A stretch of 64,000 bases of DNA from Acidobacteriota bacterium (GTDB lineage Bacteria > Acidobacteriota > Thermoanaerobaculia > UBA5066 > Gp7-AA6): assembly GCA_027307335.1 (NCBI GenBank), contig DAHUXD010000047.1:62001-126000 (forward strand). The letters are read 5' to 3'. Made by a program: the position numbers and the translations under genes. The notes under the pieces are model-generated. The model saw nothing but the letters and a program-made list of their open reading frames with translations. It made no database searches and had not been told where the DNA came from. Positions 39,987-62,698 of this stretch are shown here, piece by piece (within the stretch, counting starts at the first letter, position 1; the number at the start of each line of letters is the position of its first letter).

Positions 39987-40397
39987 ATGGCCGTCGTCGT
40001 GGCCGTGGACTTTGGTGAGAAGCGGATCGGCCTGGCGACCTCGGACGCCTCGGGGACCCTCGCGACTCCGCGCGCCACCCTGACGCGTCGGAGCGACGCC
40101 GCCGCCGTCGAGGCCCTCGCGCGCTTCTGCCGCGACGCCGAGGCCGAGCTCGTCGTCTTCGGCGTGCCGCGTTCGCCCGAGGGGAACGAGAGCGCGTTCG
40201 CGTCGCGCGTCCGCTCCTTCGCCGGACGATTCCACCGAGAAACCGGGATCCCCGTGCGCTTCCACGAGGAGACGCTCACGTCGAACGAGGCAGCGCGGCG
40301 CGTGCCCGCCGGAGCCGGCAAGGCCGCGCTCGATCGCGAGGCCGCCGCGGTCCTCCTCGAAGACTACCTGCAGCACGCGGGGGCGCGGACGCGATGA
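39987..40397 (+). CDS. ruvX: RuvX/YqgF family protein (Holliday-junction resolvase-like, rRNA processing)
   Basis: 136 residues with the RNase H-like motif VVVAVDFGEKRIGLATSD, VVFGVPRSPEGNES, VRFHEETLTSNEAARR and the C-terminal acidic AALDREAAAVLLEDYL. YqgF acts in 16S rRNA 5' maturation in E. coli and is named for its resolvase fold. Its stop overlaps the start of mltG (ATGA), a linkage seen in many bacteria. Confidence 0.94.
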   Translation: MAVVVAVDFGEKRIGLATSDASGTLATPRATLTRRSDAAAVEALARFCRDAEAELVVFGVPRSPEGNESAFASRVRSFAGRFHRETGIPVRFHEETLTSNEAARRVPAGAGKAALDREAAAVLLEDYLQHAGARTR

Positions 40398-41476
40398 GCG
40401 CCGGCCGCCGCCTGTTCCGCCTCGGCCTGCTCCTCGCGCTGCTCGGCCTCGCCGTCGGCGTGTACTTCTACTGGTGGCTCGAGTACCCGCGGCGCCCCCC
40501 GGCCGGCCCGGCCGTGGTCGTCGACTTCCCGTTCGGCACCCCGACCACGCAGATCTTCCAGCGGCTCGACCGCGAGGGCGTCGTCCGCCCGGCCTGGCTC
40601 GCGGAGCTCTACTACCGGGTCGCGCGCAGCGCCGCCGCGCTCCAGGCCGGCGAGTATCAGTTCGACCGGCCGACGCCGCTCTCGACGGTCCTCGACCGCA
40701 TGGAGCGGGGCGACGTCCTCCGCCACATCGTCGTCGTGCCGGAGGGGCTCACCGCCGAGGAGACGTTCGAGCTCTTCTGGAGCAGGGGCATCAGCCGGCC
40801 CGAGGCTTTCCGGAACGCGCTGAAGAGCCGGCAGCTCATCGACTCGATCGCCAAGGGCGCGCCCGACCTCGAGGGCTTCCTCTTCCCGGACAGCTACGTC
40901 GTGACGCGGTCCACGTCGGCGCACCGGATCGTCGAGACCATGCTCGCGAACTTCCGCCGCCACTTCACGCCCGAGATGCGGACGCGCGCGCAGGCGACGG
41001 GCCTCTCCGAACGGGACGCGGTCATCCTCGCGTCGATCGTGCAGAAGGAGACGTCGCTCGACCGGGAGGCGCCACTGATCGCCGGCGTGTACTGGAACCG
41101 GCTCCGCCACCGCATGCGGCTGCAGGCGGATCCGACGGTCGCCTATGCGCTGAAGCGCGACGGCAAGTGGACGGGAACGCTCTACCGGTCCGACTACGGC
41201 TACGAGTCCCCGTTCAACACCTACCTCGTGGACGGGCTGCCCCCGGGACCCATCTGCAATCCGGGCGAGGACGCCCTGAAGGCGGCGATCGCGCCCGCGG
41301 CGACCGAATACCTCTACTTCGTGGCCGACCGCACGGGCGGCCACACGTTCTCCCGCACCTTCGAGGAGCACCTGGAGGCGATCGCGACCACCCGGCGGCA
41401 GCGCGCCGCGGCGCCCACCCCCGAGACCCCCCCGGCCCAGGCCGAGCGGCCGGCCGCTCGTCCCTCGGGGCGCTGA
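40394..41476 (+). CDS. mltG: Endolytic transglycosylase MltG
   Basis: The 360-residue protein has one N-terminal span (about 8-28), a LysM-like region, and the MltG (YceG) catalytic domain: LEGFLFPDSYVVTRSTSA, ILASIVQKETSLDREAPLIAGVYWNRL with the catalytic glutamate in QKE, MRLQADPTVAYAL, and SPFNTYLVDGLPPGPICNPG. It cleaves nascent peptidoglycan at the inner membrane. The last 30 residues are a Pro/Ala-rich tail of low complexity. Confidence 0.95.
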   Translation: MSAGRRLFRLGLLLALLGLAVGVYFYWWLEYPRRPPAGPAVVVDFPFGTPTTQIFQRLDREGVVRPAWLAELYYRVARSAAALQAGEYQFDRPTPLSTVLDRMERGDVLRHIVVVPEGLTAEETFELFWSRGISRPEAFRNALKSRQLIDSIAKGAPDLEGFLFPDSYVVTRSTSAHRIVETMLANFRRHFTPEMRTRAQATGLSERDAVILASIVQKETSLDREAPLIAGVYWNRLRHRMRLQADPTVAYALKRDGKWTGTLYRSDYGYESPFNTYLVDGLPPGPICNPGEDALKAAIAPAATEYLYFVADRTGGHTFSRTFEEHLEAIATTRRQRAAAPTPETPPAQAERPAARPSGR

Positions 41477-41740: not shown

Positions 41741-41792
41741 CTGCGGCTTGACCCCGGGCGGGAGGGGCCCCACAATCGGGCGACACCCCTCG

Positions 41793-43613
41793 ATGACGAC
41801 GGAAAAGCTGCCCCGATCGTTCGGAAACTACTCGCTCATCGCGGCCGTCGGCACCGACGCACTCGGCGCCGTCTACCGCGGTGTGCGGCTGTCCGGAGAC
41901 CGTGCGCCCGTGCTCCTGCGCGTGCTCGAGTCGGAGGAGCTCTCCCCCGAGAAGGTCCTCGATGCGATCGAGGAGAACGGCGAGGTCCACGAGTTCCTGA
42001 AGCACGCCGCAATCGCGCGGGGGGTCGAGATGGACGCCGTCGACGGGGTCCCGTTCATCGCGTGGCAGCAGCCGAACGGCCGCACCCTCGAAGCCCTGAT
42101 CGGAAAGTGCCGCGTCGCCGGAAAGCGCGTTCCCGCCGAGCACGCCCTGCTGATCGCGGAGAAGGTCGCGACGGCCCTGGACCATGCGTACAACACGACC
42201 GTCGACGGCGACCGCACCCTCCACGGACTCGTGTGGCCCGGGTTCGTCGCGATCTCCGACGACGGGGAAATCCGCCTCGGGGGCTTCGGGCTCGCGCCCG
42301 GCGTCCTGCCCTCGATCCGCAAGCCGCGTCTCGCGGCGGAGGTCGGACGCTACCTCGCGCCCGAGGAAAGGGATACGGGCGAGGTCGGGCGCAGCTCGGA
42401 CGTGTACTCCGTCGGCATTCTCCTTCTCGAGATGCTCACCGGCCACTCGGCGCCGGCCGACCCGTTCGCCACGGTCAAGGGGGTCGCCGGCGTGCCGCCG
42501 CCGCCCGTCGCTCCCGAGATCCTGGCCGTGCTGCGGATGGCCCTGGCGCCGGCCGAGACGCGCTACAAGACGACGGGCGACCTGAGGCGCGAGCTCGGCA
42601 AGCTCCTCTTCTCCGGGCCATACGCCCCGTCGACGTTCAATCTCGCGTACTTCTTGAACGAGCTCTTCCGCGCCGAGATCGAGGCGGAGACCCGCGCGCG
42701 AGGGGGCGGGGCGAACGCCGCGTCGGCCGCGCCGGCTCCGGCATCGCCGCCTCCCGAGCGCCCGCGCGACCGCCGCGAGCCGGCGCCGGACGCCCCTCAC
42801 CCCGACCCTGTCCCGCCGGGAGAGGGCGAAGGTGGAGGCGGCGCGACGCGCCGCGGCCAGCTTCTGGTGGGCGCGCTCGTCGCGGCCGTCGCGATCGGGG
42901 GCGCCGTGCTCGTGCTTTCCCGGAAGGGCCCGGTCCCCGCCGCCCGGCCGACGCCGGCTCCGGTCTTGTTCCCGGAGAAGACCACGCCGACGCTCCTGCC
43001 GGAGCTCGCGGCGACGCCCGCCGGGCCGACGAGCACGATGTCCGAGGCCGACTTCCGCGAGGAGGTCGCGCGCCGTCTCGCGATCGAAGTCCAGAAGCTC
43101 GAGGCGTCCTCGCGGCCGCGCGGCGCGGCCTCGGCCCGGCTGCGCGCCCCGACGGAGTCCGCGCCCGAGCCGCCGCCGAAACAATCCGCGGCCCTCGTCC
43201 CGACGGCGCCGCCCACCGCGCCGCCGACCGCGTCGATCAACGCCGCGTATCCCGAGGCGATGATCGCCGCCGAGCCGACCGCCGCTCCGACGGCGCCTCC
43301 GGCGAGGGTCGCCGTGCGCGACGGCGCCCTGGTGGAGCTCGACGACGTGGACACGCCGCCCCGCGTCGCGAAGGTGGTGAAGCCCTCCTATCCTCCGCTC
43401 GCCCTCCAGGCGCGCATTGGCGGCATCGTGATCCTGCGCGTGCTCGTTTCCGAGAGCGGCGCGCCGGCGGAGATCCAGGTGCTGCGGCCGGGCCGCGCGG
43501 GTCTGACCGAGGCCGCCGTCCGCGCGGTGAAGGACTGGACCTTCCAGCCGGCGATCAAGGACGGCGTCCCGGTCCGGACCTGGATCTCGGTGCCGATCCC
43601 GTTCGAGCCGTAG
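41793..43613 (+). CDS. Pseudokinase - membrane span - TonB C-terminal domain fusion
   Basis: ATG 41793 opens 606 residues. Residues about 10-285 follow the Ser/Thr kinase fold (YSLIAAVGTDALGAVYRG; LLIAEKVATALDHAYN; SSDVYSVGILLLEMLTGHSAP), but HRD is replaced by LHGLVWPG (143-150), DFG by GGFG (163-166), and the ATP-lysine strand reads PVLLRVLE without lysine. A Pro/Ala linker, one membrane span (about 356-376), another Pro-rich linker and a TonB-type C-terminal domain (about 520-606, PSYPPLALQARIGGIVILRV; AVKDWTFQPA) follow. The kinase part is cytoplasmic and probably binding-only; the TonB end is periplasmic. Part of the first linker derives from a family D repeat. Confidence 0.85.
   Translation: MTTEKLPRSFGNYSLIAAVGTDALGAVYRGVRLSGDRAPVLLRVLESEELSPEKVLDAIEENGEVHEFLKHAAIARGVEMDAVDGVPFIAWQQPNGRTLEALIGKCRVAGKRVPAEHALLIAEKVATALDHAYNTTVDGDRTLHGLVWPGFVAISDDGEIRLGGFGLAPGVLPSIRKPRLAAEVGRYLAPEERDTGEVGRSSDVYSVGILLLEMLTGHSAPADPFATVKGVAGVPPPPVAPEILAVLRMALAPAETRYKTTGDLRRELGKLLFSGPYAPSTFNLAYFLNELFRAEIEAETRARGGGANAASAAPAPASPPPERPRDRREPAPDAPHPDPVPPGEGEGGGGATRRGQLLVGALVAAVAIGGAVLVLSRKGPVPAARPTPAPVLFPEKTTPTLLPELAATPAGPTSTMSEADFREEVARRLAIEVQKLEASSRPRGAASARLRAPTESAPEPPPKQSAALVPTAPPTAPPTASINAAYPEAMIAAEPTAAPTAPPARVAVRDGALVELDDVDTPPRVAKVVKPSYPPLALQARIGGIVILRVLVSESGAPAEIQVLRPGRAGLTEAAVRAVKDWTFQPAIKDGVPVRTWISVPIPFEP
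42793..42832 (+). repeat. Family D repeat inside the pseudokinase linker
   Basis: CCCCTCACCCCGACCCTGTC followed by CCGCCGGGAGAGGGCGAAGG matches the type of intergenic element seen at 19308-19342. Here it is in frame and encodes PHPDPVPPGEGEGG in the linker before the membrane span. Confidence 0.55.
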
Positions 43614-43689: not shown

Positions 43690-44832
43690 CTACGGCTTCG
43701 GGTACTCGATTCCCTTGAGCGAAGCGTCGCGCGTGCGGAGGTAATCCTCCATCACCTTGTCTTCGATCCACGAGATCTCCGTCCCGTCGATGAAGTAGGT
43801 CGGCGTCGACTTGACGCCGAGACGCTGGCCCTCGTCGAGGTCCTTGCGCACGTCGGCGAGGCTCTCGTCGCGGAGGTAGCACGCGAGGAAGTCCGCGCGC
43901 GGAATGCCCGACGCCTCGGCGAAGGTCACGGCGAGGTCGTCGATGCCCGCCACCGTCATGACGGCCTGCTGCTGGTACACCTGCTTCTTGAACGCGAACA
44001 TCGCCGGCGCCTTGGCGAACCGGAAGATGCAGTCGGCCGCCGAGGCGGCGCGCATCGACCAGACGTGGGAGAACCAGAGCGGGAAGAACTTGTAGTACCG
44101 CTTGTACGAGAGGTTCGGGTTCGCCTCGAGCAGCTGGTCCATCTGGAGACCGCGGTAGCGGCAGTACCCGCACTCCATGTCGGCGTACTCGACCATCGTG
44201 ATCGCGCCGTTCGGCTTGCCCTCGAAGCGATTCTGGGAGAGGTCGATCCGCTTCTTGCGCTCCTCGCGGGGATCCGTCTGGAACTCCCACAGCGAGCCGC
44301 TGAAGTACCTCGTTCCGTCGGGCGTGACGTAACCGGGCACGCGCATCGGGCCGAGGCCCGTCTCGATCGCGAGCACGACGGCCTTCAGACCCGCGGCGTC
44401 CTGATTCGGGGCGAGCGTGGCCTTCGCGCGCGTGCGGTACAGCGCCGACGTGCGCGCGTCGATCCAGGCGAGGTCCGCGTCGGAGCGGACGGGTGCCGGA
44501 TTGGGGTTCGCGACCGTTTCCCCGTCGAAGAACCACTTGCCGTCGTCGGAGACGTAGACGGTCTTGTCGACGTTCAGCTTCGCGTACTTGCCCGTCCTCT
44601 TGATCTTGTATCCCTGGAATCCGGGCAGCCGCTCGGACGACTTCTCGACGGTCACCTTCGTTCCCGGGTCGAACGGAAGGTACTGGACGAGGTAGGTGTT
44701 CAGGCGCACTTCGACGCCGCCGGCCGCCGCGGCGGGCTTGGCGGCGGCCTGCCGCGCGAGCGCCTCGAGCGGCGGCGCGGCGAGCGCCGCGAGGGCGACC
44801 ACGAGACCGAATCCCAGGGTGCGTGTTCTCAT
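43690..44832 (-). CDS. DsbA-like thioredoxin-fold protein with extra N-terminal domain (1)
   Basis: ATG at 44832 behind AAAGGGA gives 380 residues. A signal peptide (about 1-28) is followed by an N-terminal domain (about 40-200) with PGFQGYKIKRTGKYAKLNVDKTVYVSDDGKWFF, read here only as a landmark. A DsbA/Thioredoxin_4-type fold follows, with active site C221-G-Y-C224 (EYADMECGYCRYR) and cis-proline KSTPTYFIDG. It should be a periplasmic thiol-disulfide enzyme. The N-terminal domain has a shared look with the second copy at 48919-50034. Last gene of the phosphodiesterase/TPR cluster. Confidence 0.88.
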   Translation of the reverse strand: MRTRTLGFGLVVALAALAAPPLEALARQAAAKPAAAAGGVEVRLNTYLVQYLPFDPGTKVTVEKSSERLPGFQGYKIKRTGKYAKLNVDKTVYVSDDGKWFFDGETVANPNPAPVRSDADLAWIDARTSALYRTRAKATLAPNQDAAGLKAVVLAIETGLGPMRVPGYVTPDGTRYFSGSLWEFQTDPREERKKRIDLSQNRFEGKPNGAITMVEYADMECGYCRYRGLQMDQLLEANPNLSYKRYYKFFPLWFSHVWSMRAASAADCIFRFAKAPAMFAFKKQVYQQQAVMTVAGIDDLAVTFAEASGIPRADFLACYLRDESLADVRKDLDEGQRLGVKSTPTYFIDGTEISWIEDKVMEDYLRTRDASLKGIEYPKP

Positions 44833-44852
44833 TCGTCTGTCCCTTTCCGTTT

Positions 44853-46889
44853 TCAGTGCTTCTCCGAACCCGCAGGCAGGCCCTTTTCTAACATTTCGAG
44901 CGATCGAATGGCTCCCGGCTGGTCGGGCTTGAGCGCCAGGGACCGCCGAAACAGCCCGATCGCCGCTTCCGGACGGCCCGTGCACGTGGCGAGGAGCGCC
45001 AGGATGTTCAGGGTGTCGGGGTCCTGCGTGGTTCCCTCGAACCGCGCCACGGCCGCCTGCGCCGACCCGCAGTCGCCGCCCTTGAACCGGAGCACGGCGA
45101 GCTGCCGGGCCACGCGCTCGTCGGTGGGGTACTGCGCGGCGGCGCGCTCGAGGATCTCCCTCGCGCGCGCCGGCTTGCCGCTCTCCTGGTACTCGATGCC
45201 CCAGGTCGCGGCGGTCGCCCCCGGATCCGCGTGACCCGAGGCGAGCGAGCGGAAGAGCCAGTCGATCGCCTCCCTGTCGCGGCCCTCGCGCCGCAGGAGC
45301 CCGGCGAGATTGAACTGCGGCGAGTGGTAATCGGGCCGGAGCTCGAGCGCCTTGTGAAACGCCGCCTCCGCCTCCTTCGCCCTCGCGGGGCCGCCGGACA
45401 GGGACAGATACAGCCCCAGGTTGTTCCACCCGCCTTCCGTCAGCCCCGGCCGGTCGCCGCCCGGGGGAACGAGTTTGCCCGGCTCACCGCCCGAGAGGTA
45501 ACCGAGGGCGAGCAGCTTCTTCGTGTACTCGCTCGCCTCCTGCTCGGAGACGCCGTCGGTCGCGAGCCGCCGCACCGCGATCGACGAGAGATCCTTGCGC
45601 GCCGGCGACACGAGATCGGGAAAGGCAGTCTGGATCACGGTGCCCGTCGCGCGGCGGTCGAGCGGCAGATCGAGGAGGGCGGCGACGGTCGGCGCGACGT
45701 CGAAGACGGTGGCCGCACCCCTGCCGGAACCGCGGCGGACCCGCGCGCCCCACGCCGCGAAGACGCCGTCGAGGCGGTGCCAGAAGCCGGCCGTCGCCGG
45801 ATTCAGCGAGTCGCGCGAGCAGGACCGGTCTTCGCCCCACTTGAAGCCGTGGTCCGAGTTGACGATCAGCGTCGCCCCGTCCTCCTCCGCGCGCCGCATC
45901 CACTGACCGAGCAGCCGGTCGACCAGCGCGTAGTACTCGTCGACCACGCGCCGATAGCGCGCGAAGTCGGCGTCGCTCGTGCACGCGAGGCGCGGCGGCA
46001 CGTCCGCGGCGAACACGTGGCCCACGACGTCCGTGCCCTCGAGGTACAGCATCATCAGGTCGGGAAGGTTGCGGTCGTACAGCTCGCGGGCGACGCGCGA
46101 CGAGACGCGCGTGGCGCCGATCGTCCGCGCGAGCGCGATCAGCGGCTCGCGCAGACCGTTGCCACTCGCGCGCGCCGCCGCGATCTCGGAGACCGGCACG
46201 TCGGCGAACCGGGTCAGCTCCTCGTCGGTCACCGTGCCCTCCCGGGCGGTGATCTGTTCGACGCCGGGCGCGAGCGAGGCCGGATACGCCAGCCCGTTCT
46301 TCGGCAACCCCTCGAAGAGGATGGGGCTCGCGTGATCGCTGACGAAGAAGCCCTTCACCTCCTCGGCCGGATGCGTGCCCCACCACCCCACCACGCCGAC
46401 CGTGCGGCCCTCGGCGGAGGCGACGTTCCAGATCGCGGGCACCGCGCGCGAGCGGCCGGAGATGGGGACCTTCTGGCCGGTCTTCGGGTCGACCTCCTGG
46501 AAGTCGAGCACGCGGTGCAGGTCGGGGCCGATGCCCGTCGCGAGCGTGGTCCAGATGACGGGCGACAGGATCGGGACGAACGCCTTGAGCTTCGCCGTGG
46601 AGCCCTCTTCCGTGATCCGCTTCCAGTTCGGCATCTTCCCTTCCGCGGCGAGCCGGTCGAGCAGATCCCAGTCGAGGCCGTCGAGGCCGAGCCAGATCAC
46701 CGGCGCGCGTCCGCCGGCCGGCCGCCGGGTCCGCGAGGCGACGTCCTCGGTCTCGGTGTGCGCGGCCGGCACCGCGGTCGCGCGCGGCGAGGGTCCGGAC
46801 GACGCGGCGCGCTCGCCCGAGCGGCCGCACGACAGAGCGGCCGGCAACGCCGCCAGCGCGAGGATCGGAAGGAACGGCCGACGTCTCAT
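44853..46889 (-). CDS. Secreted phosphodiesterase (alkaline-phosphatase superfamily) with TPR domain, paralogue 1
   Basis: 678 residues; exported, possibly as a lipoprotein (ALSC21). The catalytic domain (about 62-460) has the metal and nucleophile signatures of type I phosphodiesterases: PVIWLGLDGLD (D70), SPVIWTTLATG (T114/T115), EGTDVVGHVF, VNSDHGFKWGE, VFDVAPTVAALL. The C-terminal 200 residues form about five TPR-like helices (GWNNLGLYLSLSGGPARAKE; FNLAGLLRREGRDREAIDWL). Four cysteines shared by all four paralogues are present (ACTSD, RSCSRD, GDCGSA, ATCTGR). ATG overlaps the stop of paralogue 2 (ATGA). The substrate is unknown. Confidence 0.9.
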   Translation of the reverse strand: MRRRPFLPILALAALPAALSCGRSGERAASSGPSPRATAVPAAHTETEDVASRTRRPAGGRAPVIWLGLDGLDWDLLDRLAAEGKMPNWKRITEEGSTAKLKAFVPILSPVIWTTLATGIGPDLHRVLDFQEVDPKTGQKVPISGRSRAVPAIWNVASAEGRTVGVVGWWGTHPAEEVKGFFVSDHASPILFEGLPKNGLAYPASLAPGVEQITAREGTVTDEELTRFADVPVSEIAAARASGNGLREPLIALARTIGATRVSSRVARELYDRNLPDLMMLYLEGTDVVGHVFAADVPPRLACTSDADFARYRRVVDEYYALVDRLLGQWMRRAEEDGATLIVNSDHGFKWGEDRSCSRDSLNPATAGFWHRLDGVFAAWGARVRRGSGRGAATVFDVAPTVAALLDLPLDRRATGTVIQTAFPDLVSPARKDLSSIAVRRLATDGVSEQEASEYTKKLLALGYLSGGEPGKLVPPGGDRPGLTEGGWNNLGLYLSLSGGPARAKEAEAAFHKALELRPDYHSPQFNLAGLLRREGRDREAIDWLFRSLASGHADPGATAATWGIEYQESGKPARAREILERAAAQYPTDERVARQLAVLRFKGGDCGSAQAAVARFEGTTQDPDTLNILALLATCTGRPEAAIGLFRRSLALKPDQPGAIRSLEMLEKGLPAGSEKH

Positions 46890-48919
46890 GGCGAGCGGCG
46901 CGCCGGCGATCCCGGTCCGTCCTCGAGCACGGCGAGCGAGCGGACGACCGTCTCCTGCGCGGGGTCGATCGAGAGCGAGCGGCGGAAGGCCTCGACCGCA
47001 TCCTGCCTCCGGCCCAGGCACCCGCGGATCAGCCCGATCGCATTCAGCGTGTCGGTCGACCGGGTCGCCGCCGCGAACGGCGCGAGCTCCCGGTCCGCCC
47101 GCGCGCAGTCCTTGTGGGCGAAGAAATCGAGCGCGAGCGCGCGCCGGATCACCTCGCTCTGCGGATACGCGGCGGCTCCCCGTTCCAGGACGCGCCGCGC
47201 CTCGGCCGTCTTCTGGTGGCGGGCATCGTCGAGGGCCCAGTCGAGCACGACGCCGTCCGGATCGGGAGCGCCGGCGGCGAGCGCGCGGAAGAGCCACTCG
47301 ACCGCGCGGCCGTCGTCGCCGCGGCGGCGATAGAGGACGGCCAGGTTGTACTGCGGCGTGGCGAAGTGAGGATCGAGCTCGATCGCCTTAAGGTAGGCGG
47401 CCTCCGCCGCGAGGTCCGCGTCCTTCCCCGGCTCGGACGCATCGAAGAGCCCGAGATTGTTCCATCCCGCCTCGGTGAGGCCCGGCCGGTCCTTCCCCGA
47501 CGGGGCGAGCCGGGCCGGTTCGGTTCCCGAGAGGTAGCCGAGCGCCCGCAGCTTCTTCGCGTAATCGCTCGCCTCGCTCTCGGAGAGGTTCGCGCCCTGG
47601 AGCCGCCGGACGGCGACGGTCTCGGCGAGCTTCTCCCGGCGGGGCGTCGGGAGCGCCGGGAAGGCGCCCCGGATCGGCTCGCCTCGGACGTGGGTGTCCA
47701 CGGGGATCCCGAGCAACGCGGAGACCGTGGGGTCGACGTCGTAGACCGTGGCATGGCCCCGCTGCGGACTCGGGCGGACGCGGGCGCCCCAGGCCGCGAA
47801 GACGCCATCCAGACGATGCCACCAGCCCGCCGTCCCCGGGTCGCGGGAGGCCTTCTCGCAGGAACGCTCGGATCCCCATCGGAATCCGTGATCGCTGTTG
47901 ACGATGAGCGTCGCCCCGTCCTCCTCGGCCCGCCGCATCCACTGGCCGAGCAAGCGATCGACGAGCTCGAAGTAGGCGTCGACGGCGTGGCCGTAGCGGG
48001 CGAGATCCTCGTCGGAGGTGCACGGCATCTTCGGCAGCACGTCGGTGGCGAAGAGATGGCCCACGACGTCGGTGCCCTCGAAGTAGACCATCGTGAGGTC
48101 CGGCAGGTTCCGGTCGTAGAGCTCGCGCGCGAGGTGCGAGACGAGCCGCGTCGCCCCGATCGTCCGACCGAGCGCGGTGACCGGGTTCTGGACCGCCTCC
48201 CGCGTCCGGCGCTCCCGCGCGATGGCGTCGACCGGCATCGCGACGTAGGCGGTCAACTCCTCGTCCGAGACGCGGCCGTCGGTCTCCGTCAGCCGCGCGA
48301 CGCCGGAAGACAGAGACTCGGGGTAGGCGATGCCCTGCTGCGAGAGCCCCTCGAACAGGATGGCGCTCGCGTGGTCCGACACGAAGAACCCGCGGACCTC
48401 CTCGGCCGGATGCGTCGCCCACCAGCCGACGACGCCGACGGAGAGCCCGGCCGCCGTGGCGACGTTCCAGATCGCCGGGACCGCGCGGGACCGTCCCGAA
48501 ATCGGCATCTTCTGCCCGGTCGCCGGATCGACTTCCTGGAAGTCGAGGACGCCGTGGCGGTCGGGCGAGACTCCCGTGGCGAGCGTGGTCCAGACGACCG
48601 GCGAGAGGATCGGCATGTACGACGTCAGGCGGGCGGTGTATCCCTCCGCCTCGAGACGCTTCCAGTTCGGCATCGTCCCTTCGGCCGCGAGGCGGTCCAC
48701 GAGCTCGAAGTCGAGGCCGTCGAGGCCGAGCCAGATCACCGGCGCGCGTCCGCCCGGCGGGCGTTTCGTTCGGGAGGCGACATCCCGGGCGTCCGACGGC
48801 GCGGCGGCGGGCGCCGGCGTTCGGGGCGCCTCGGCCGTGCGCGCGGGCGCGGCCTCCCGCCGGCAGGACGCGAGGAGGACGGCCATGCCCGCGGCCGCGA
48901 CGGCGAACCGCCCGCGCAT
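46886..48919 (-). CDS. Secreted phosphodiesterase with TPR domain, paralogue 2
   Basis: 677 residues with the best lipobox of the set (VLLASC), a Pro/Ala linker and the motif DVASRTKRPPGGRAPVIW shared with its paralogues. The active-site motifs are PVIWLGLDGLDFELVDRL, SPVVWTTLATGVSPDRH, FEGTDVVGHLF and VNSDHGFRWGS. TPR-like helices end the protein (YNLAVLYRRRGDDGRAVEWL; CLGRRQDAVEAFRRSLSIDP). The shared cysteines are PCTSD, RSCEKA, KDCARA and RGCLGRR. It is coupled at both ends: TGATG with the DsbA-like gene upstream and ATGA with paralogue 1 downstream. Confidence 0.9.
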   Translation of the reverse strand: MRGRFAVAAAGMAVLLASCRREAAPARTAEAPRTPAPAAAPSDARDVASRTKRPPGGRAPVIWLGLDGLDFELVDRLAAEGTMPNWKRLEAEGYTARLTSYMPILSPVVWTTLATGVSPDRHGVLDFQEVDPATGQKMPISGRSRAVPAIWNVATAAGLSVGVVGWWATHPAEEVRGFFVSDHASAILFEGLSQQGIAYPESLSSGVARLTETDGRVSDEELTAYVAMPVDAIARERRTREAVQNPVTALGRTIGATRLVSHLARELYDRNLPDLTMVYFEGTDVVGHLFATDVLPKMPCTSDEDLARYGHAVDAYFELVDRLLGQWMRRAEEDGATLIVNSDHGFRWGSERSCEKASRDPGTAGWWHRLDGVFAAWGARVRPSPQRGHATVYDVDPTVSALLGIPVDTHVRGEPIRGAFPALPTPRREKLAETVAVRRLQGANLSESEASDYAKKLRALGYLSGTEPARLAPSGKDRPGLTEAGWNNLGLFDASEPGKDADLAAEAAYLKAIELDPHFATPQYNLAVLYRRRGDDGRAVEWLFRALAAGAPDPDGVVLDWALDDARHQKTAEARRVLERGAAAYPQSEVIRRALALDFFAHKDCARADRELAPFAAATRSTDTLNAIGLIRGCLGRRQDAVEAFRRSLSIDPAQETVVRSLAVLEDGPGSPARRSP

Positions 48920-50034
48920 CAGCGCGCGGAGCTCTTGCCGGAGGAACCGCCGGGCTCGGCGAGGCGCGAGTCGATGAAGTGCTCGGCGAGGTCGGGCTCG
49001 GAGGTCAGCCAGTAGCCCCGGAAGAAGAACTGGGGCGTGCCGTTGATGCCGAGACGCAGCGCGAGGTCGACGTCGGCGATGACCCGGTCGCGGGCGCGCC
49101 CGCTCGCGATCTCCGCCTCGAAGGCGGCCTTCTGCCCCGCCGCCTCCGCGAGGTCGATCGCCGTGTCGCGCGCCGCCTGCGGGTTCATCGAGGCCGCCTT
49201 CGCGAAGACGGCTCTCTCGTAGCTGTCCTCCAGCATCGGCTGGATCGCGCGCAGCGCCGCGGCGCTCTCGGCGGCCGCGAACGACCACTCGTGGATCTTC
49301 ACGAGCGGCAGGAACCGCGTCTCGACCGAGCCGCCGTGCGAGAACGCGTAGTCGCGGATCTGCGGCGTGCGCACGCGGCACCGCTCGCACTGGAAGTCGA
49401 TGAAGGCCGTCACGGTGAAGAGCGATTTCCTGGCGGTCGGCGCGGCGCCCTCGGCGAGCAGCTTCGCCCGCGTCACCTCGGGCGCGACGTCGAGCGGGAA
49501 GAACTCGCCGAGCAGGAGCGACGCGCCGTCCTGCGAGACGAAACCGCGGAGCGTCGCGAGGGCGCCCGGCGCCTGCTGGATCTTGACCTCGATCGGCACG
49601 AGCGCGCCGCGGGACGCGCCCTTCGTCGCGATGCCGACGGGCAGTCCGTACTCCTGCTCGAGGGCGCCCTTGATCACCGGCAGGTCCGCGGCGGCCGAGA
49701 ACGGACGGTCCCTGCGGCTGTCGTCGTGCAGGACCTGTCCGACGAAGATCTCCCTGTGGGCCGCGTCGACGAGCGCGATGTTGGAATCGTTGCGGTTCTT
49801 CAGGTCGCAGGTCCGGTCGGCCTTGTAGGCCTCGTAGCCGGGAATCCTCACCTCGGGGTCCTCGGCGACGGCGACCCTGTTGGCGGGACAGACCGAATAC
49901 CACCCGGTGAAGAAGCGTCCGACCTTCTGGCGGGTCGCCTCGTCGGCCCGGCCCGCGGCCGGCACGAGCAGCGCCAGGACGCCACAGAGCGCGGCGAGGA
50001 AACGCCGGCGGGCGAAAACCCCGGGTTTCAGCAT
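48919..50034 (-). CDS. DsbA-like thioredoxin-fold protein with extra N-terminal domain (2)
   Basis: 371 residues with a signal peptide (RRRFLAALCGVLALLVPAAG). The N-terminal domain (about 35-200) contains PGYEAYKADRTC, comparable to PGFQGYKI in the first DsbA-like protein. The catalytic domain has active site C216-E-R-C219 (FIDFQCERCRVR) and the cis-proline segment INGTPQFFFRGYW. CERC is an uncommon dipeptide for DsbA. It sits inside the phosphodiesterase/TPR run and overlaps the start of paralogue 2 (TGATG), so the oxidoreductase and the phosphodiesterase are made together. Confidence 0.88.
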   Translation of the reverse strand: MLKPGVFARRRFLAALCGVLALLVPAAGRADEATRQKVGRFFTGWYSVCPANRVAVAEDPEVRIPGYEAYKADRTCDLKNRNDSNIALVDAAHREIFVGQVLHDDSRRDRPFSAAADLPVIKGALEQEYGLPVGIATKGASRGALVPIEVKIQQAPGALATLRGFVSQDGASLLLGEFFPLDVAPEVTRAKLLAEGAAPTARKSLFTVTAFIDFQCERCRVRTPQIRDYAFSHGGSVETRFLPLVKIHEWSFAAAESAAALRAIQPMLEDSYERAVFAKAASMNPQAARDTAIDLAEAAGQKAAFEAEIASGRARDRVIADVDLALRLGINGTPQFFFRGYWLTSEPDLAEHFIDSRLAEPGGSSGKSSAR

Positions 50035-50037
50035 CCG

Positions 50038-50054
50038 GCGAACCTTAACACGCG
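50038..50054 (-). promoter_or_regulatory. Shared 5' element CGCGTGTTAAGGTTCGC, copy 1
   Basis: A 17-base sequence, identical to 57076-57092, ends 3 bp before the ATG of DsbA-like protein 2 and holds a Shine-Dalgarno (TTAAGGTT). The identity exceeds what a ribosome site needs, pointing to a common origin or common control. Confidence 0.6.
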
Positions 50055-50092
50055 TAAGGGCTTGCGGAATTTCCGCCCGGGAACGACGGCGC

Positions 50093-52123
50093 TCAGCGGG
50101 CGGCCGGTTTGCCGGCTTCGAGCAGCTGCAGGGCCTGCCGCGGGCCCGCCTGAGCCGGGTCGATCTCGAGCGAGCGGCGCAGGAGTCCGATCGACTCCGC
50201 CCGGCGCCCGAGACAGGTCTGGATCAGCGCCATCGCGTTGAGCGTCTCGACCGAGCGGGTCGTGGACTCGAACGGGGACACGCCCTGCCAGGCGGCGGCG
50301 CAGTCCTTCGCGTGGTACCGCACGAGCGCGAGCTCGCGGGCGATCGACTCGCTCGCCGGGTACGTCCGCGCTCCTCGCTCGAGGATCTCGCGCGCGGCGG
50401 CGGGCCTCTTACGGTCGTCGAAGCCGACGTACCAGTTGAGGATCGTGTCCTCGGGATGGGCGTGCCCCGCCGCGAACGATCGGAAGAGCCAATCGATCGC
50501 CTTCTGGTCCATGTCCCGCATCCGATACAGAACGGCCAGGTTGAAGAGGGGCGTCGAGTACTTCGGCGTCAGATCGATCGCCTTCCGGAGCGCCGCCTCG
50601 GCGTTCGCGAATTCTTTCGTGTTGTCGCGCAGGTAGACACCGAGGTTGTTCCACGCCACTTCGGTCAGGCCGGGGTGGTCGCCCCCGGTCGGCTCAAGCC
50701 TCGGGGCCTCGGATCCGGAGAGATAGCCGAGCGACTTCAGCCGGCGGGCGTACTCGTCGGAGTCCCCCGCGGACGGCGCCGCCGACTCGACGCGGCGCAC
50801 GGCGATCTTCCCGAACAGCGGCTCGCGGGCGGGCGCCGAGAGGTTCGCGAACGCCGCCGCGATCGGCCTGCCCGTCTCCGCGCGGTCGACGGGAAGTCCG
50901 AGCAGCGCCGAAATCGTCGGAGCGACGTCGAACACCGACGCGGCGCCCCGCTCCGGGCTCGGGCGCACGCGCGCGCCCCACGCGGCGAAGACTCCGTCGA
51001 GGCGGTGCCAGGAGGCCGACATCGAGGGATTCGTCAGCAGGGAGGCGTCGCACCACCGGTCGGAGCCCCACTTGAAACCGTGATCGGAATTCACGACGAG
51101 CGTCGCCCCGTCCTCCTGGGCGCGCCGCATCCACTGGCCGAGCAGGCGATCGACGTCGGCGTAGTACTCGTCGACGGCCCGGCCGTAGCGACGGAAGTCG
51201 GCCTCCGAGACGCAGTCGAGCTTCGGCGGCACGAAGGGCGCGAACACGTGGCCGACGACGTCCGTTCCCTCGAAGTAGACCGCCATGAGATCCGGGGTGT
51301 GGCGGTCGTAGAGCTCGCGGGCGATCCGCTGCTCCACGCGCGTCGCCCCCAGCGTGCGCGCCAGCGCATCGACCGGATTCGTGAGTCCCGCGCCGCGGGA
51401 CTGGGCGATCTGGTCGGCGGGGACGTCGAGGAAGCGGGAGAGCTCCTCGTTCGAGACGGCGCCCTCGCGCGCGACGATCTGGTCGACGCCGGCCGTGAGC
51501 GCCGGCGGATAGGCCACGCCGGCGCGCGGGAGTCCCTCGAAGAGGATCGGGCTCGCATGATCCGACACGAAGAAGCCGTTCACCTCCTCGGCGGGATGCG
51601 TCGCCCACCACCCGACGACGCCGACCGTGCGTCCCTCGGCCGACGCGACGTTCCAGATCGCCGGCACGGCGCGCGAGGATCCGGAGATCGGCACCTTCGC
51701 GCCGCTCTTCGGATCGATCTCCTGGAAGTCGAGCACCCGATGGACGTCCGGGCTCACGCCGGTCGCGATCGTCGTCCAGACGATCGGCGAGAACGGCGGC
51801 GAGAACGATTTTAGACGCGCCGTGTAGCCCTCCGCCGCGAGCCGCTTCCAGTTCGGCATGCGGCCCTCGGCGGCGAGCCGATCCACGAGCTCGAAGTCGA
51901 GGCCGTCGAAGCCGAGCCAGATGACCGACGTCCGGGGGCCCTTGGGGCGCGGGGTCCGGGACGCGACGTCCTCGTCCCTCGAGCGCGTCGGCACCGGCGT
52001 CGCCGCCGCGGCCCGCGACTCGGGCGGGCTCTCGCGCCGGCACGACGCCGGAAGGAGAACCGCGAGGAGGATCGCGGCGCCGAGCCCGGGCCGGCCCGAA
52101 GTCCGAAGACGAGCCTCGCGCAC
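50093..52123 (-). CDS. Secreted phosphodiesterase with TPR domain, paralogue 3
   Basis: 676 residues from a GTG, with signal peptide ending LLPASC (likely lipidated cysteine). Catalytic motifs SVIWLGFDGLDFELVDRL, SPIVWTTIATGVSPDVH, FEGTDVVGHVF, VNSDHGFKWGS and VFDVAPTISALLGLP are intact. TPR part: NNLGVYLRDNTKEFANAEAA, FNLAVLYRMRDMDQKAIDWL, CLGRRAESIGLLRRSLEIDP. The shared cysteines are DCVSE, RWCDAS, KDCAAA and QTCLGRR. It is the least similar in the linker (DVASRTPRPKGPRTS). It is 58 bp upstream of DsbA-like protein 2. Confidence 0.9.
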   Translation of the reverse strand: MREARLRTSGRPGLGAAILLAVLLPASCRRESPPESRAAAATPVPTRSRDEDVASRTPRPKGPRTSVIWLGFDGLDFELVDRLAAEGRMPNWKRLAAEGYTARLKSFSPPFSPIVWTTIATGVSPDVHRVLDFQEIDPKSGAKVPISGSSRAVPAIWNVASAEGRTVGVVGWWATHPAEEVNGFFVSDHASPILFEGLPRAGVAYPPALTAGVDQIVAREGAVSNEELSRFLDVPADQIAQSRGAGLTNPVDALARTLGATRVEQRIARELYDRHTPDLMAVYFEGTDVVGHVFAPFVPPKLDCVSEADFRRYGRAVDEYYADVDRLLGQWMRRAQEDGATLVVNSDHGFKWGSDRWCDASLLTNPSMSASWHRLDGVFAAWGARVRPSPERGAASVFDVAPTISALLGLPVDRAETGRPIAAAFANLSAPAREPLFGKIAVRRVESAAPSAGDSDEYARRLKSLGYLSGSEAPRLEPTGGDHPGLTEVAWNNLGVYLRDNTKEFANAEAALRKAIDLTPKYSTPLFNLAVLYRMRDMDQKAIDWLFRSFAAGHAHPEDTILNWYVGFDDRKRPAAAREILERGARTYPASESIARELALVRYHAKDCAAAWQGVSPFESTTRSVETLNAMALIQTCLGRRAESIGLLRRSLEIDPAQAGPRQALQLLEAGKPAAR

Positions 52124-52273
52124 GGCGCGACGCTAGCACGCCCGCCCTCGAACCGGACCGCGAATGGATCCGTCGAGCCCGGGAACGCCGGCCCGGGCAA
52201 GCTGTTGAAAATCAAGGAGAAACCGGGGGAGCCTCGCGACCGTCCGAGCGCGAACGCGGACGGCGAGCGACGA

Positions 52274-53605
52274 TCAGCGCCCGTCTTCGAGCGACAGAAC
52301 CATCCGCGCGAAGTCGATCAGCACGTGGAAGCGCTCGAGCAGCGTGGTTCCGATGATGCCGTCCTCGAAGGCCGTGTCGTCGTCCTTGACGGCGAGGTCC
52401 TGGAATCGCACGGCCCATCCGGAAAGCCCGATCGTCACGTCGGAGATGCGCCCCCATTCGACCTGGCTGTGGCCGAGCCCGTAGACCTTCTTCGGGAAGA
52501 CCTTGCTCGATTGAGGAAGATTCGCCCGGAACTGCCCCACGGAGGTCATGAGCGTCGGCTCGCTCCCCGTGTCGAGGAGGAACTGGTAGTAGCCGTTGTG
52601 GTCGATCGAGCCGCGGACGAACATGCGGCCGCTCCGGTAGAAGAGATTCTGGTCGGGCGAGCGCTTGGGAGTGCGGAAGTCCTTCCTGGTCCAGTGGAGA
52701 CGACGGCTCGGGTAGTCGATTTCCAGTGTGAACTCCTTCAGGAGATGCAGGCCGAGGACGATGGGAACCGGAAACTGTCCCCGCAGCGTCTCGAAGAGCA
52801 TGGCCTCGTCCGGCATGACCATGACCGGAACGTCGCGGACGACGTAGCCTCCGAACGACAGTTCGCCGATCACGCCGAAGTCGACGGGAAACTCCCTCTT
52901 GTGGAGACCACGCCCGGAGGCGCGTGAATCCGGAATCATCCGCACGTGGACCTCGCGCGCGAAGGATTGCGTCACGATCGTGTAGACGGCGCCGGAGTCC
53001 ACGATCGCGGCGGAGTCGTTCCCGTTCACCCGCACCGGAATGCGGATCAGCTGGAAGCCCTGCATCTCGAACGCGTCGGACCCCTCCGCCCCCACCGGGG
53101 GACCAGCGTACACGTCGACGTCGCGGAGGGCGGTGAGGAAGTGCAGGAATCCCGGCACGAGGCCAAAGCCGTTGCGGATCGCGCTCGCCGCGTATTCCTC
53201 CGCCGTCGCGAAATCGTCCCAGAGAATCGCGCCCTGGGAGAGCGCCCACTCGATCTCGCCGCGCCGGAGGGGTCTCGTCTCGAGGCTCCGGGCGTGCTCG
53301 AGAACCGGCCATGCGGAGCCGAAATCGCCGCGCGCCAGCAGCACGCGCCCGTAGAGGGAGAGGTTCGCCGCGCTCTTCGCGAGCTCGCCTTCGGGGAGGG
53401 ACTCGAGATAGCGCTGGACCTCGAGATAGTGCCCGCGCTGGAAGCGCTCCTCGGCGTTGAAGGCGCCGGGCGGCGGGGGCGCCTTCACGCGGCTCGCGGG
53501 GAGAGGCGCCACGGACACCGCCGGGGCGACGGTGCACGCCGCGCCCACCCCGAGCAGGAGCACGGCCGCCGCCCAGCCGCGCACGCGCGGCGCCTTCGAG
53601 CTCAC
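52274..53605 (-). CDS. Retropepsin-like aspartic protease with TPR-type N-terminus
   Basis: 443 residues from a GTG. A signal peptide with a possible lipid cysteine (GAAC24) leads into a helical, TPR-like region (about 45-165: FQRGHYLEVQRYLESLPEGE; ARGDFGSAWPVLEHARSLE). Two pepsin-like lobes follow, with active-site motifs AAIVDSGAVYTIV (DSG) and FLLDTGSEPTLM (DTG) and flanking ILG-type strands (PIVLGLHLLKEFTLEIDY; DGIIGTTLLERFHVLIDF). Such single-chain retropepsin/TPR proteins occur in Acidobacteriota. It should be exported. A processing role for cluster proteins is possible but not shown. A 150-bp gene-free gap separates it from paralogue 3. Confidence 0.87.
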   Translation of the reverse strand: MSSKAPRVRGWAAAVLLLGVGAACTVAPAVSVAPLPASRVKAPPPPGAFNAEERFQRGHYLEVQRYLESLPEGELAKSAANLSLYGRVLLARGDFGSAWPVLEHARSLETRPLRRGEIEWALSQGAILWDDFATAEEYAASAIRNGFGLVPGFLHFLTALRDVDVYAGPPVGAEGSDAFEMQGFQLIRIPVRVNGNDSAAIVDSGAVYTIVTQSFAREVHVRMIPDSRASGRGLHKREFPVDFGVIGELSFGGYVVRDVPVMVMPDEAMLFETLRGQFPVPIVLGLHLLKEFTLEIDYPSRRLHWTRKDFRTPKRSPDQNLFYRSGRMFVRGSIDHNGYYQFLLDTGSEPTLMTSVGQFRANLPQSSKVFPKKVYGLGHSQVEWGRISDVTIGLSGWAVRFQDLAVKDDDTAFEDGIIGTTLLERFHVLIDFARMVLSLEDGR

Positions 53606-53645
53606 GATGTTGCTGACGGAGTCGCCGCTTCTTTCGAGGCGCGAG

Positions 53646-54779
53646 CTATTTTGCGGCGGACTGCGCCGCGTCGACCGAGCGGTTCATGCTCCGCGCCGCC
53701 TCGAGCGTGGTCAGCGCCTGCTCGTCGCGCTGAAGGACGTTGCGTCCGTAGCCCCGCTTCGTCAGGAACTCGAAGTCCACCTGCTGGTACGACACGGACG
53801 CCGGCAGGAGCTCGTGGCGATAGTGCCAGACCTCCCGCCAGCTCGTCTCCGATTCCGGCAGGGTGTTCGCGGGCCCCGACATCGACGCGAGGATCGCCGC
53901 GGTCTGGCCGCCCGACGCACCCTTCAGCGCCGCGAACGCCTCGAAGCTGTTGTGACGGGACATCCCGTTGGGGTCCGCCGTGTCCTCGCCGATCTCGATG
54001 GGTTTGCGCCCGGCCCACGTCGGCGGACCGAGCAGCACGAAGAGCATTCCCCGGTCCGTCAGGCTTCCCCGCGTCTCCTCCTGGCCGAGCCGCGCGTCGG
54101 CGAACGCGACGCGGCGCTCGAACTCGTCGCGGAACTCGTTCTCGGGAGTCTCGGGACTCGGATCGTGCGCTTTCCAGAACACCTCGACGAACTGACTGCG
54201 CTCGGCGAGCGTCGACAGCCTCCTGTAGTCGTCGCGCTGCGCCGCCGTCAGGAGATACCGGACGGGACCGTCGGCCCAGTTCTCGTCGGCGCCGTCGCTC
54301 TTCTGGTCCTGTGCCGGCTTGAACGCGCGATAGGCGGCGGCGAAGGAGCCCGTATCGGCGGGGGCGGCGGGCTTCGCCGGAGACGCGTCCGGCGTCGGCG
54401 GCGAGCTCCTCTTCTGCTCCAGCGATTTCTTGGTCTCGTCGAGCAGCGCGATCACGCGATGCGGATACAGCGAGGGATCGAGCGCCGGGTTCGGGGTGTA
54501 GACGAGGTACGTCTCGAAGCTCGAGCGGGCCTCGTCGACGCGGCCGAGCGCCGCGAAACAGGCGCCGCGATAGAACGCGAGCGCGGGCGTGAGCTGCGCC
54601 CGATACGCCTCGTTCCCGGGCCGATCGGCTTCCGCCTGAAGCCGATCGAGCGTCTGGAGCGAGGCCGCGTAGTTCGCGAGACGGAATTCCTCCTTGGCCT
54701 TGTAGAAGAGCGACGGGAGAGTGGCGGCGACGAGGGACGTGGCGGCGAGGAAGGCGAGTGAAGCAACGGAGCGACGCAT
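53646..54779 (-). CDS. GWxTD domain protein
   Basis: ATG at 54779 behind GGAGGTGTTCC gives 377 residues. A signal peptide (SVASLAFLAATSLVAA) is followed by TPR-like helices (about 25-115: FYKAKEEFRLANYAASLQTL), a Lys/Pro/Ala linker and a GWxTD domain (about 170-275; here NWADGPVRYLLTAAQRDDYR, FWKAHDPSPETPENEFRDEF, GMLFVLLGPP). The name-giving GWxTD reads NWADG. The family is common in Acidobacteriota and Bacteroidota and its function is unknown; envelope localisation is expected. It lies between paralogue 4 and the aspartic protease. Confidence 0.87.
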   Translation of the reverse strand: MRRSVASLAFLAATSLVAATLPSLFYKAKEEFRLANYAASLQTLDRLQAEADRPGNEAYRAQLTPALAFYRGACFAALGRVDEARSSFETYLVYTPNPALDPSLYPHRVIALLDETKKSLEQKRSSPPTPDASPAKPAAPADTGSFAAAYRAFKPAQDQKSDGADENWADGPVRYLLTAAQRDDYRRLSTLAERSQFVEVFWKAHDPSPETPENEFRDEFERRVAFADARLGQEETRGSLTDRGMLFVLLGPPTWAGRKPIEIGEDTADPNGMSRHNSFEAFAALKGASGGQTAAILASMSGPANTLPESETSWREVWHYRHELLPASVSYQQVDFEFLTKRGYGRNVLQRDEQALTTLEAARSMNRSVDAAQSAAK

Positions 54780-54916
54780 GGAACACCTCCGGAGCCAATC
54801 CATCTTACCCCCGGACGGAGATCGTTTCGCGACACCTCATTCGCGACTGAGTCTCTTTTCCGACCGGGTCCCGAACCGCCGGGCTGTCGGGTCTCGTGCG
54901 ACAGCTCCGATCCAAT

Positions 54917-56965
54917 TCAGTGAATCGAGGCGGCACTTTTCTGGAGGAGGTCGAGGGATTCGATGACGGTTTTCTGGTCCGGTACGAGGGCGAGAGAGCG
55001 GCGGAAGAGGACGACCGCTTCCTCTCGGCGCCCGAGGCACGCCAGAACCAATCCCAGCGTGTTGAGGGTCTGCGGTTCGTGCGTGGTGGTCTCGAAGCGA
55101 GACAGCGCCGCGTCGGCGCTCCGGCAATCCTTCGCCTTGAAGAACAGGAGGGCCAGCGCCCGATGGATCGGCTCGTCGTCGGGATAGAGACGCGCCCCGC
55201 GTTCGAGAACCGTTCTCGCCTCGAGCTCCCTGCCCTTCACGTCGTAATACATGGCCCAGTCGAGGACGACCCGTTCCGGGCTGGACTGACCCGCGGCGAT
55301 GGCCTGAAAGAGCAGATCGATGGCCTCTCTCTGCTCCCCCCGGGCCCGCCGCGCCTCCGCGAGATGCAGCTTCGGCGTCGCGTCGCCCGGCGAGAGCTCG
55401 AGCGACTTCTGGAAGGCCGCGACCGCCGCCGCCATGTGGGCCTCCCCGCCCAGATTCGACAGGTAGAGCCCGAGGTTGTTCCATGCCGCCTCGGTCAGGC
55501 CGGGCCGGTCGCCGCCGGGCGGAGCGAGCTTCCCCGACCGGGCGCCGGAGAGGTAGCCGAGGGCCATCAGCCGCTTCGAGTATTCGCTCGCTTCCTTCTC
55601 CGACATCGGCTCGGCAGCGAGACGCCTCACCGCGATCTCCGACGCGAGGTCCTTCCGGGGCGGCGGCGAAAGACCGCGGAACGCTTCGAGCATCGGCCGG
55701 CCCGGCGCGCGCCGCTCCACGGGCAGCCCCAGGAGCGCGGCCACGGTCGGCTCGACGTCGAAGACGCTCGCGTGGCCCCTCTCGCCGCTCCGGTTCACCC
55801 TCGCGCCCCAGGCCGCGAAGACGCCGTCGAGTCGGTGCCAGAAGCCGGCCGTCGCCGGGTCGAAGGATCCGCCGTCGCACGACCGGTCCTCTCCCCACTT
55901 GAACCCGTGATCCGAGTTGACGATGAGCGTGGCGCCGTCCTCCTCGGCGCGCCGCATCCACTGGCCGAGCACCCGGTCGACGAGGGCGTAGTACTCGTCG
56001 ACCGTGTGGCTATACCGGGCGAAGTCCGCATCCGATACGCAGGACATCCTGGGCGGAACGTCGGACGCGAAGAGATGGCCGACGACGTCGGTGCCCTCGA
56101 GATAGAGCATGGTCAGATCCGGAAGGTTCCGGTCGTACAACTCGCGGGCGATCCGGGACTCCGCGCGGGTCGCGCCGATCGCGCGCGCGAGCAGCACCAG
56201 CTTGTTCGAGAGGCCCTGCTCGCTCCCGCGCGCGGCGGCGATCTCACCGGCCGGCACGGCGACGAACCGGGCGAGCTCCTCGCTCGAGACCACGCTCTCC
56301 CGGCCGGAGATCTGCTCCACGCCCGCCGACAGCGACGGAGGAAACGCGAGGCCCTGCCTCGGCAGACCCTCGAACAGGATCGGGCTCGCATGGTCGGAGA
56401 CGAAGAAGCCCTTGACCTCCTCCGCCGGATGGGTGGCCCACCAGCCGACGACGCCCACCGTCAGCCCCGACTCGGACGCCACGTTCCAGATCGCCGGCAC
56501 CGCGCGGGAGTTCCCGGAGATCGGCACCCTCATGCCGGTGGCCGGGTCCAGTTGCTGAAAGTCGAGAACCCGATGGATGTCCGGGCCGACTCCGGTCGCG
56601 AGGGTCGTCCACACGATGGGCGAAAGGATCGGGACGAAGGACGTCAGGCGCGCCGTGTACCCCTCGGAAGAGAGCCGCTTCCAGTGGGGCATCCGTCCCT
56701 CTACCGCCAGCCGGTCGACGAGCTCGAAGTCGAACCCGTCGAGCCCCAGCCAGATCACGGGCGCGCGGCCCCCGGAGGGGCGCCGCCGCCGCGATGAGAC
56801 ATCCGAAGAATCCGAGGAGGGGCCGGGCGAGTTCCGGGACGCCGACGCGGCGGGCGGGGTGACGCCCGATGCTCGCGAGGGCTCCTGCGGCCGACGTTCG
56901 CAGGACAGCACGCCGAGAACGAGCAGCGCCACCGCGCCGCCGCCTCCCCGCGGACTCCGGAGCAT
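54917..56965 (-). CDS. Secreted phosphodiesterase with TPR domain, paralogue 4
   Basis: 682 residues from ATG 56965 (TTG 56968 possible). The signal peptide ends LGVLSC, a likely lipobox. Catalytic motifs: PVIWLGLDGFDFELVDRL, SPIVWTTLATGVGPDIH, LEGTDVVGHLF, VNSDHGFKWGE, VFDVEPTVAALLGLP. TPR-like C-terminus: NNLGLYLSNLGGEAHMAAAV, LHLAEARRARGEQREAIDLL, CLGRREEAVVLFRRSLALVP. The shared cysteines are SCVSD, RSCDGG, KDCRSA and LACLGRR. First full gene of the cluster. Its ribosome-binding site lies in a hairpin and a 35-codon ORF ends on its start codon (TGATG). Confidence 0.9.
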   Translation of the reverse strand: MLRSPRGGGGAVALLVLGVLSCERRPQEPSRASGVTPPAASASRNSPGPSSDSSDVSSRRRRPSGGRAPVIWLGLDGFDFELVDRLAVEGRMPHWKRLSSEGYTARLTSFVPILSPIVWTTLATGVGPDIHRVLDFQQLDPATGMRVPISGNSRAVPAIWNVASESGLTVGVVGWWATHPAEEVKGFFVSDHASPILFEGLPRQGLAFPPSLSAGVEQISGRESVVSSEELARFVAVPAGEIAAARGSEQGLSNKLVLLARAIGATRAESRIARELYDRNLPDLTMLYLEGTDVVGHLFASDVPPRMSCVSDADFARYSHTVDEYYALVDRVLGQWMRRAEEDGATLIVNSDHGFKWGEDRSCDGGSFDPATAGFWHRLDGVFAAWGARVNRSGERGHASVFDVEPTVAALLGLPVERRAPGRPMLEAFRGLSPPPRKDLASEIAVRRLAAEPMSEKEASEYSKRLMALGYLSGARSGKLAPPGGDRPGLTEAAWNNLGLYLSNLGGEAHMAAAVAAFQKSLELSPGDATPKLHLAEARRARGEQREAIDLLFQAIAAGQSSPERVVLDWAMYYDVKGRELEARTVLERGARLYPDDEPIHRALALLFFKAKDCRSADAALSRFETTTHEPQTLNTLGLVLACLGRREEAVVLFRRSLALVPDQKTVIESLDLLQKSAASIH

Positions 56966-57148: not shown

Positions 57149-57178
57149 AAAGAAAAGGGGGCGGCCGAAGCCGCCCCT
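57149..57178 (-). terminator. Intrinsic terminator of the TonB-dependent receptor gene
   Basis: On the minus strand GGGGCGGC-TTCG-GCCGCCCC is an 8-bp stem with a UUCG tetraloop followed by CTTTTCTTT, 26 bp after the receptor's stop codon. It is the strongest intrinsic terminator in the window and separates the receptor from the phosphodiesterase cluster. Confidence 0.9.
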
Positions 57179-62693: not shown

Positions 62694-62698
62694 GATTC

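Follow-up and report, generated by a model that had tools for sequence, protein, structure and literature searches.

Do the adjacent genes on the minus strand of this locus, which encode four paralogous phosphodiesterase/TPR proteins (PDEa to PDEd), two DsbA-like proteins (DSB1 and DSB2), a GWxTD-domain protein and a retropepsin-like protease, belong to a single envelope system? The preliminary description had grouped the eight in this way. All eight open reading frames were found on that strand, at the place and in the order that it gave, within the window (the whole stretch of 64,000 nucleotides analysed here, taken from a host genome of 4.37 Mb in 65 contigs, at C28:62001-126000). Its family names were upheld, i.e., PF01663 with TPRs for each of the four PDEs, TIGR04514 for the GWxTD protein, a clan AA protease and Thioredoxin_4/DSBA, and the overlapping starts at DSB2/PDEc (TGATG) and PDEc/PDEd (ATGA) were both real; PDEd and DSB1 were separated by 20 bp. 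Missing from its list was the gene for a TonB-dependent receptor (TBDR), which lies directly upstream of PDEa on the same strand, 238 bp away (Table 1). Comparison with relatives showed that the conserved unit across Thermoanaerobaculia consists of a dedicated TBDR with a single PDE-TPR gene downstream of it, and not of the eight-gene set; the earlier grouping is corrected accordingly.

Table 1. Features of the locus and its flanks, in window coordinates
Feature	Position	Strand	Remarks
TBDR, 1089 aa	57204..60473	-	CarboxypepD_reg + Plug + OMP_b-brl_4 barrel by Pfam; Oar-like layout
Terminator-like hairpin	57158..57177	-	GGGGCGGC-TTCG-GCCGCCCC then CTTTTCTTTG; between TBDR and PDEa
PDEa	54917..56965	-	PF01663 phosphodiesterase-family domain + TPR; lipobox-like N-terminus (GVLSC); directly 3' of TBDR
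GWxTD-domain protein	53646..54803	-	TIGR04514; motif reads NWADG
Retropepsin-like clan AA aspartyl protease	52274..53605	-	Two D[ST]G sites; local insertion
PDEb, second phosphodiesterase/TPR paralogue	50093..52123	-	PF01663 + TPR
DSB2, two-domain DsbA-like thiol oxidoreductase	48919..50034	-	CERC; Thioredoxin_4/DSBA
PDEc, third paralogue	46886..48919	-	PF01663 + TPR; start overlaps DSB2 stop
PDEd, fourth paralogue	44853..46889	-	PF01663 + TPR; start overlaps PDEc stop
DSB1, two-domain DsbA-like thiol oxidoreductase	43690..44832	-	CGYC; belongs to flanking syntenic block
Kinase-like domain fused to TonB C-terminal domain	41748..43613	+	Flanking
YceG/MltG-like protein	40394..41476	+	Flanking
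Biotin carboxylase	61176-62702	-	Flanking
Carboxyltransferase	62699-63904	-	Flanking

Conservation of the receptor-phosphodiesterase pair

Among 148 genomes of Thermoanaerobaculia, mostly draft assemblies in which many neighbourhoods stop at contig edges, 24 of the 36 strong matches to the TBDR (E 1e-100) were accompanied by a PDE on the same strand no more than 6 kb downstream, the receptor of genome G002, which is in two pieces, being counted once. Strong TBDR matches were rare in this sample, and chance is therefore not a reasonable cause of the adjacency; by our order-of-magnitude estimate it would place the two together about once in 10,000 per gene. Linkage was also mapped on to a tree of 79 distinct PDEs, where it was scored if a TBDR of at least 250 bits lay within 2.6 kb upstream. 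This showed that linkage was clustered (12 changes, against a mean of 23.1 in shuffled data; 0 of 500 shuffles were as low) and that all 28 linked PDEs sat in one group of 54 members. Many PDE relatives on the tree had no linked TBDR, so the enzyme can serve elsewhere too.

The pair was not confined to one site or to one class. In four genomes (G003, G005, G006 and G009) TBDR and PDE were still paired, at a site other than the carboxylase-DSB1 block, and outside Thermoanaerobaculia the two best PDE matches (G209 and G152, from two families) had the same type of TBDR upstream. Across 23 loci, TBDR distances and PDE distances were correlated (r = 0.75, uncorrected for species history), as shared ancestry alone would also make them.

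Expansion of the phosphodiesterases and the accessory genes

The four window PDEs were approximately 59–66% identical to one another and formed a single clade (support 100/99); their nearest neighbour on the tree, less well supported, was a G002 gene. The local duplication claimed in the preliminary description is thus borne out, the four copies being a local expansion of the TBDR's partner. The four-copy array occurred in the host genome alone among the 148 sampled; the two other genera of the host's family carried two and three PDE copies, on separate contigs.

The retropepsin-like protease was clearly assigned (PF13650, 68.1 bits against a cut-off of 24.3), with active-site motifs DSG at residue 203 and DTG at 345. 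It was found in 27 other genomes, in none of which was it linked to a PDE; it is best regarded as a passenger. A weak match of this protein to a candidate PADLOC model was the sole indication of a defence system, which was rejected.

The GWxTD protein scored 75 bits with TIGR04514 (cut-off 28) and fell just under the threshold of the Pfam GWxTD model (26.3, cut-off 26.9). Its gene lay between TBDR and PDE in the host's family and in G018, from another family, while GWxTD genes elsewhere were often without TBDR or PDE. A role for GWxTD genes as general neighbours of the TBDR was rejected, there being no support for it beyond the host's family and G018 among the loci examined. No paper with GWxTD was found in the open library searched. 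Three tandem GWxTD-domain genes were seen at G000:C7:75600-79054 (locus L123), away from TBDR or PDE matches. Locus L061, in a record titled Gemmatimonadaceae and possibly a mislabelled bin, had a PDE inside the clade of the host's family and a GWxTD gene just upstream.

When the neighbourhoods of relatives were compared, DSB2 was seen in the host's family alone; for the most part, both it and GWxTD are additions at the level of the family. In both DSB proteins, the CxxC motif and the conserved Thr-Pro of the DsbA-like C-terminal domain, which were invariant in nine sequences, recall DsbA, ScsC and DsbC-type proteins, from which the DSB proteins differ in an extra N-terminal part of approximately 150 residues, apparently two helix-plus-four-strand repeats. 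The model of DSB1 (pLDDT 86.0) contained both these repeats and the DsbA-like C-terminal domain, with fold matches to the DsbA family; secondary structure and weak profile matches suggest that the N-terminal part resembles the N-terminal domains of DsbC. The GWxTD and DSB proteins are plausibly accessory, with the DSB proteins folding exported partners.

DSB1 itself belongs to a different unit. A block comprising the carboxylase genes, DSB1, the kinase/TonB gene and mltG was conserved and exists without the TBDR-PDE pair. In genomes whose pair is elsewhere, DSB1 lay directly 3' of the carboxylase genes; it preceded kinase/TonB-mltG wherever the contig extended far enough. The pair sits inside this block in G013, as in the host genome, and adjoins DSB1-kinase/TonB-mltG in G007. 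Combined with the unlinked retropepsin, the restricted DSB2 and the unique four-copy array, the separate affiliation of DSB1 argues against a single eight-gene system. The preliminary description had offered co-occurrence of these genes in related genomes as a check on its proposal; the eight-gene set proved not to be conserved, and what was conserved was the TBDR-PDE pair, which is absent from that description.

Six loci (L109, L110, L111, L112, L114 and L116) had DSB1 directly after the carboxylase with neither TBDR nor PDE between. The kinase/TonB gene was kept beside DSB1 and mltG in relatives; read by eye, its product has no usual HRD and DFG motifs, and it is probably a pseudokinase-TonB fusion.

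Most proteins of the cluster had also been described as carrying TPR-like helices, which holds for the PDEs; the signal in the GWxTD protein was weak and below cut-off, and the DSB proteins and the retropepsin had no Pfam support for such helices. That every protein is exported agrees with the N-termini, which by eye fit an envelope location; those of the window PDEs looked like lipoprotein N-termini.

Fold and active site of the PDE-TPR proteins

All four window PDEs matched PF01663 (99.7–111.2 bits, cut-off 23). In the structure that AlphaFold2 predicted for PDEd (pLDDT 89.9, pTM 0.87), a catalytic domain resembling NPP precedes a helical TPR domain; the top fold matches of this model were NPP/ENPP phosphodiesterases and PafA (for NPP, Z of about 25–26 over about 275 residues, with an rmsd of about 3 Å). 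A likeness to phosphoglycerol or phosphoethanolamine transferases, which had been put forward for structural comparison, did not emerge among the matches listed: the NPP/ENPP enzymes and PafA ranked first, no such transferase was present among the 50 fold matches listed for PDEd, and no window PDE matched PF00884 (EptA/LtaS-type sulfatase-fold transferases) at E 0.01. The resemblance to NPP/ENPP enzymes (Xac NPP, ENPP1/3, ENPP6/7) and to PafA comprised the fold of the catalytic domain and the metal-ligand residues; the window PDEs differ from them in their C-terminal TPR domain, and appear to have Phe where an aligned venom phosphodiesterase has Asn.

Across 42 PDE sequences, D70, D287, H291, D346, H347 and H371 were invariant, while position 115 was Thr in 36, Ser in five and a gap in one. 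By analogy with the family, we take these residues to be the ligands of two metal ions and the Thr/Ser nucleophile, and the complete set was intact in all four window PDEs. This conservation supports catalysis on phosphate esters and, judging from sequence and model together, the PDE-TPR proteins are most likely active metal-dependent phosphoesterases. Phe130, present in 41 of the 42 rows, aligned opposite the Asn that follows the HG motif in venom phosphodiesterase; on the basis of this alignment and of NPP structures, it may occupy the NPP Asn site. Diesterase activity is therefore not assured.

Transcription

Terminator-like sites were no more frequent across the region than in shuffled sequence, and no sigma-70 promoters were found in the region nor any Rfam match to a structured RNA. 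The hairpin that follows the stop codon of the TBDR has eight G-C pairs, a loop of UUCG and a T-rich tail. It was considered further, since relatives have one in the corresponding position: by our reading, a comparable hairpin with a T-containing tail was located 14–30 bases after the TBDR stop in approximately 18 of 23 linked loci. Its presence in most loci makes a single TBDR-PDE transcript doubtful; the alternatives are that the two genes form separate units and that the hairpin reduces expression of the enzyme relative to the receptor.

Proposed function and alternative explanations

Acidobacteriota abound in soils, a setting in which organic phosphorus is important, and little is known of transport across their outer membrane; as a possible means of using organophosphates, the conserved receptor-phosphoesterase pair is a concrete candidate within the phylum. 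The pairing suggests a system that scavenges or transports an organophosphate. Our preferred reading, held tentatively and with slightly less than even confidence, is that the functional core is the TBDR working with the PDE-TPR protein at the outer membrane, in organophosphate processing and uptake. The enzyme would hydrolyse an organic phosphate ester, either a diester or a monoester, and the TBDR, energised by TonB, would import the substrate or the product; the TPR domain may dock the enzyme on to the TBDR or another envelope partner, and the four PDE copies could widen or tune the substrate range. The link to organophosphate uptake was drawn from the TBDR pairing and from the precedent of the PUS loci in Flavobacterium, which are induced when phosphate is depleted and combine SusCD-like TBDTs with phosphodiesterases and phosphatases (PMC8115612). 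The resemblance to those loci (PusCD with PDE/PME) lies in the co-location of a TonB-dependent transporter gene with phosphoesterase genes; the partner here differs in that its PF01663 enzyme domain is joined to TPRs. No match to a Pfam SusD family was found in ten proteins (the nine cluster proteins and the flanking kinase-TonB protein). The enzyme-TPR protein might take the place of SusD, with the TPR domain docked on the receptor, the phosphoesterase cutting the ligand at the channel mouth and the tandem paralogues giving one receptor several specificities; this is quite unlikely. The SusCD idea would be extended by a receptor whose partner is an enzyme-TPR protein. No paper joining TBDR, phosphodiesterase, tetratricopeptide and Acidobacteria was found in the open library searched.

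It is somewhat unlikely that the PDE-TPR proteins remodel the envelope instead, editing surface polymers that contain phosphate or the head groups of lipids, with the adjacency of the TBDR unrelated or indirect; this reading is close to that of the preliminary description. The proteins do look exported and lipoprotein-like, their fold family includes the lipid- and choline-phosphate-cleaving ENPP6, ENPP7 and autotaxin, and many PDE relatives have no adjacent TBDR; such a role leaves unexplained, however, why a single type of TBDR and a single group of PDEs should stay neighbours across many families and at different sites. The persistence of the pair at other sites and outside the class, beyond the hold of the flanking block, also weighs against shared history having kept together genes without joint work. 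Synteny is evidently slow to break here, since the carboxylase-DSB1-kinase/TonB-mltG block is conserved without an obvious functional link, and the terminator-like hairpin separates TBDR from PDE; inertia of this kind is nevertheless considered quite unlikely as the explanation.

Least probable is a role of the TBDR in protein export, perhaps of the enzymes encoded beside it. Profiles above cut-offs (PF13620, PF07715, PF25183 and PF00593) give it the CarboxypepD_reg, plug and barrel layout discussed for Oar-type TonB-dependent transporters, and Myxococcus requires Oar to secrete PopC (PMC6434023). The same layout is widespread and uninformative on the direction of transport, and the PDEs of the host look like lipoproteins; the TBDR also differs from Oar in being linked to an enzyme gene.

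Other relatives of the pair

A second TBDR, 73% identical to that of the window, was seen at G000:C6:29229-32420 (L041), with no PDE relative within the 20 kb examined. Long-frame PDE-TPR relatives, apparently N-terminally extended, occurred phylum-wide with no strong TBDR upstream (L097, L100, L102, L103, L135-L137, L142-L144 and others). At two further loci (L038 and L086), two PDE-TPR genes lay side by side on opposite strands.
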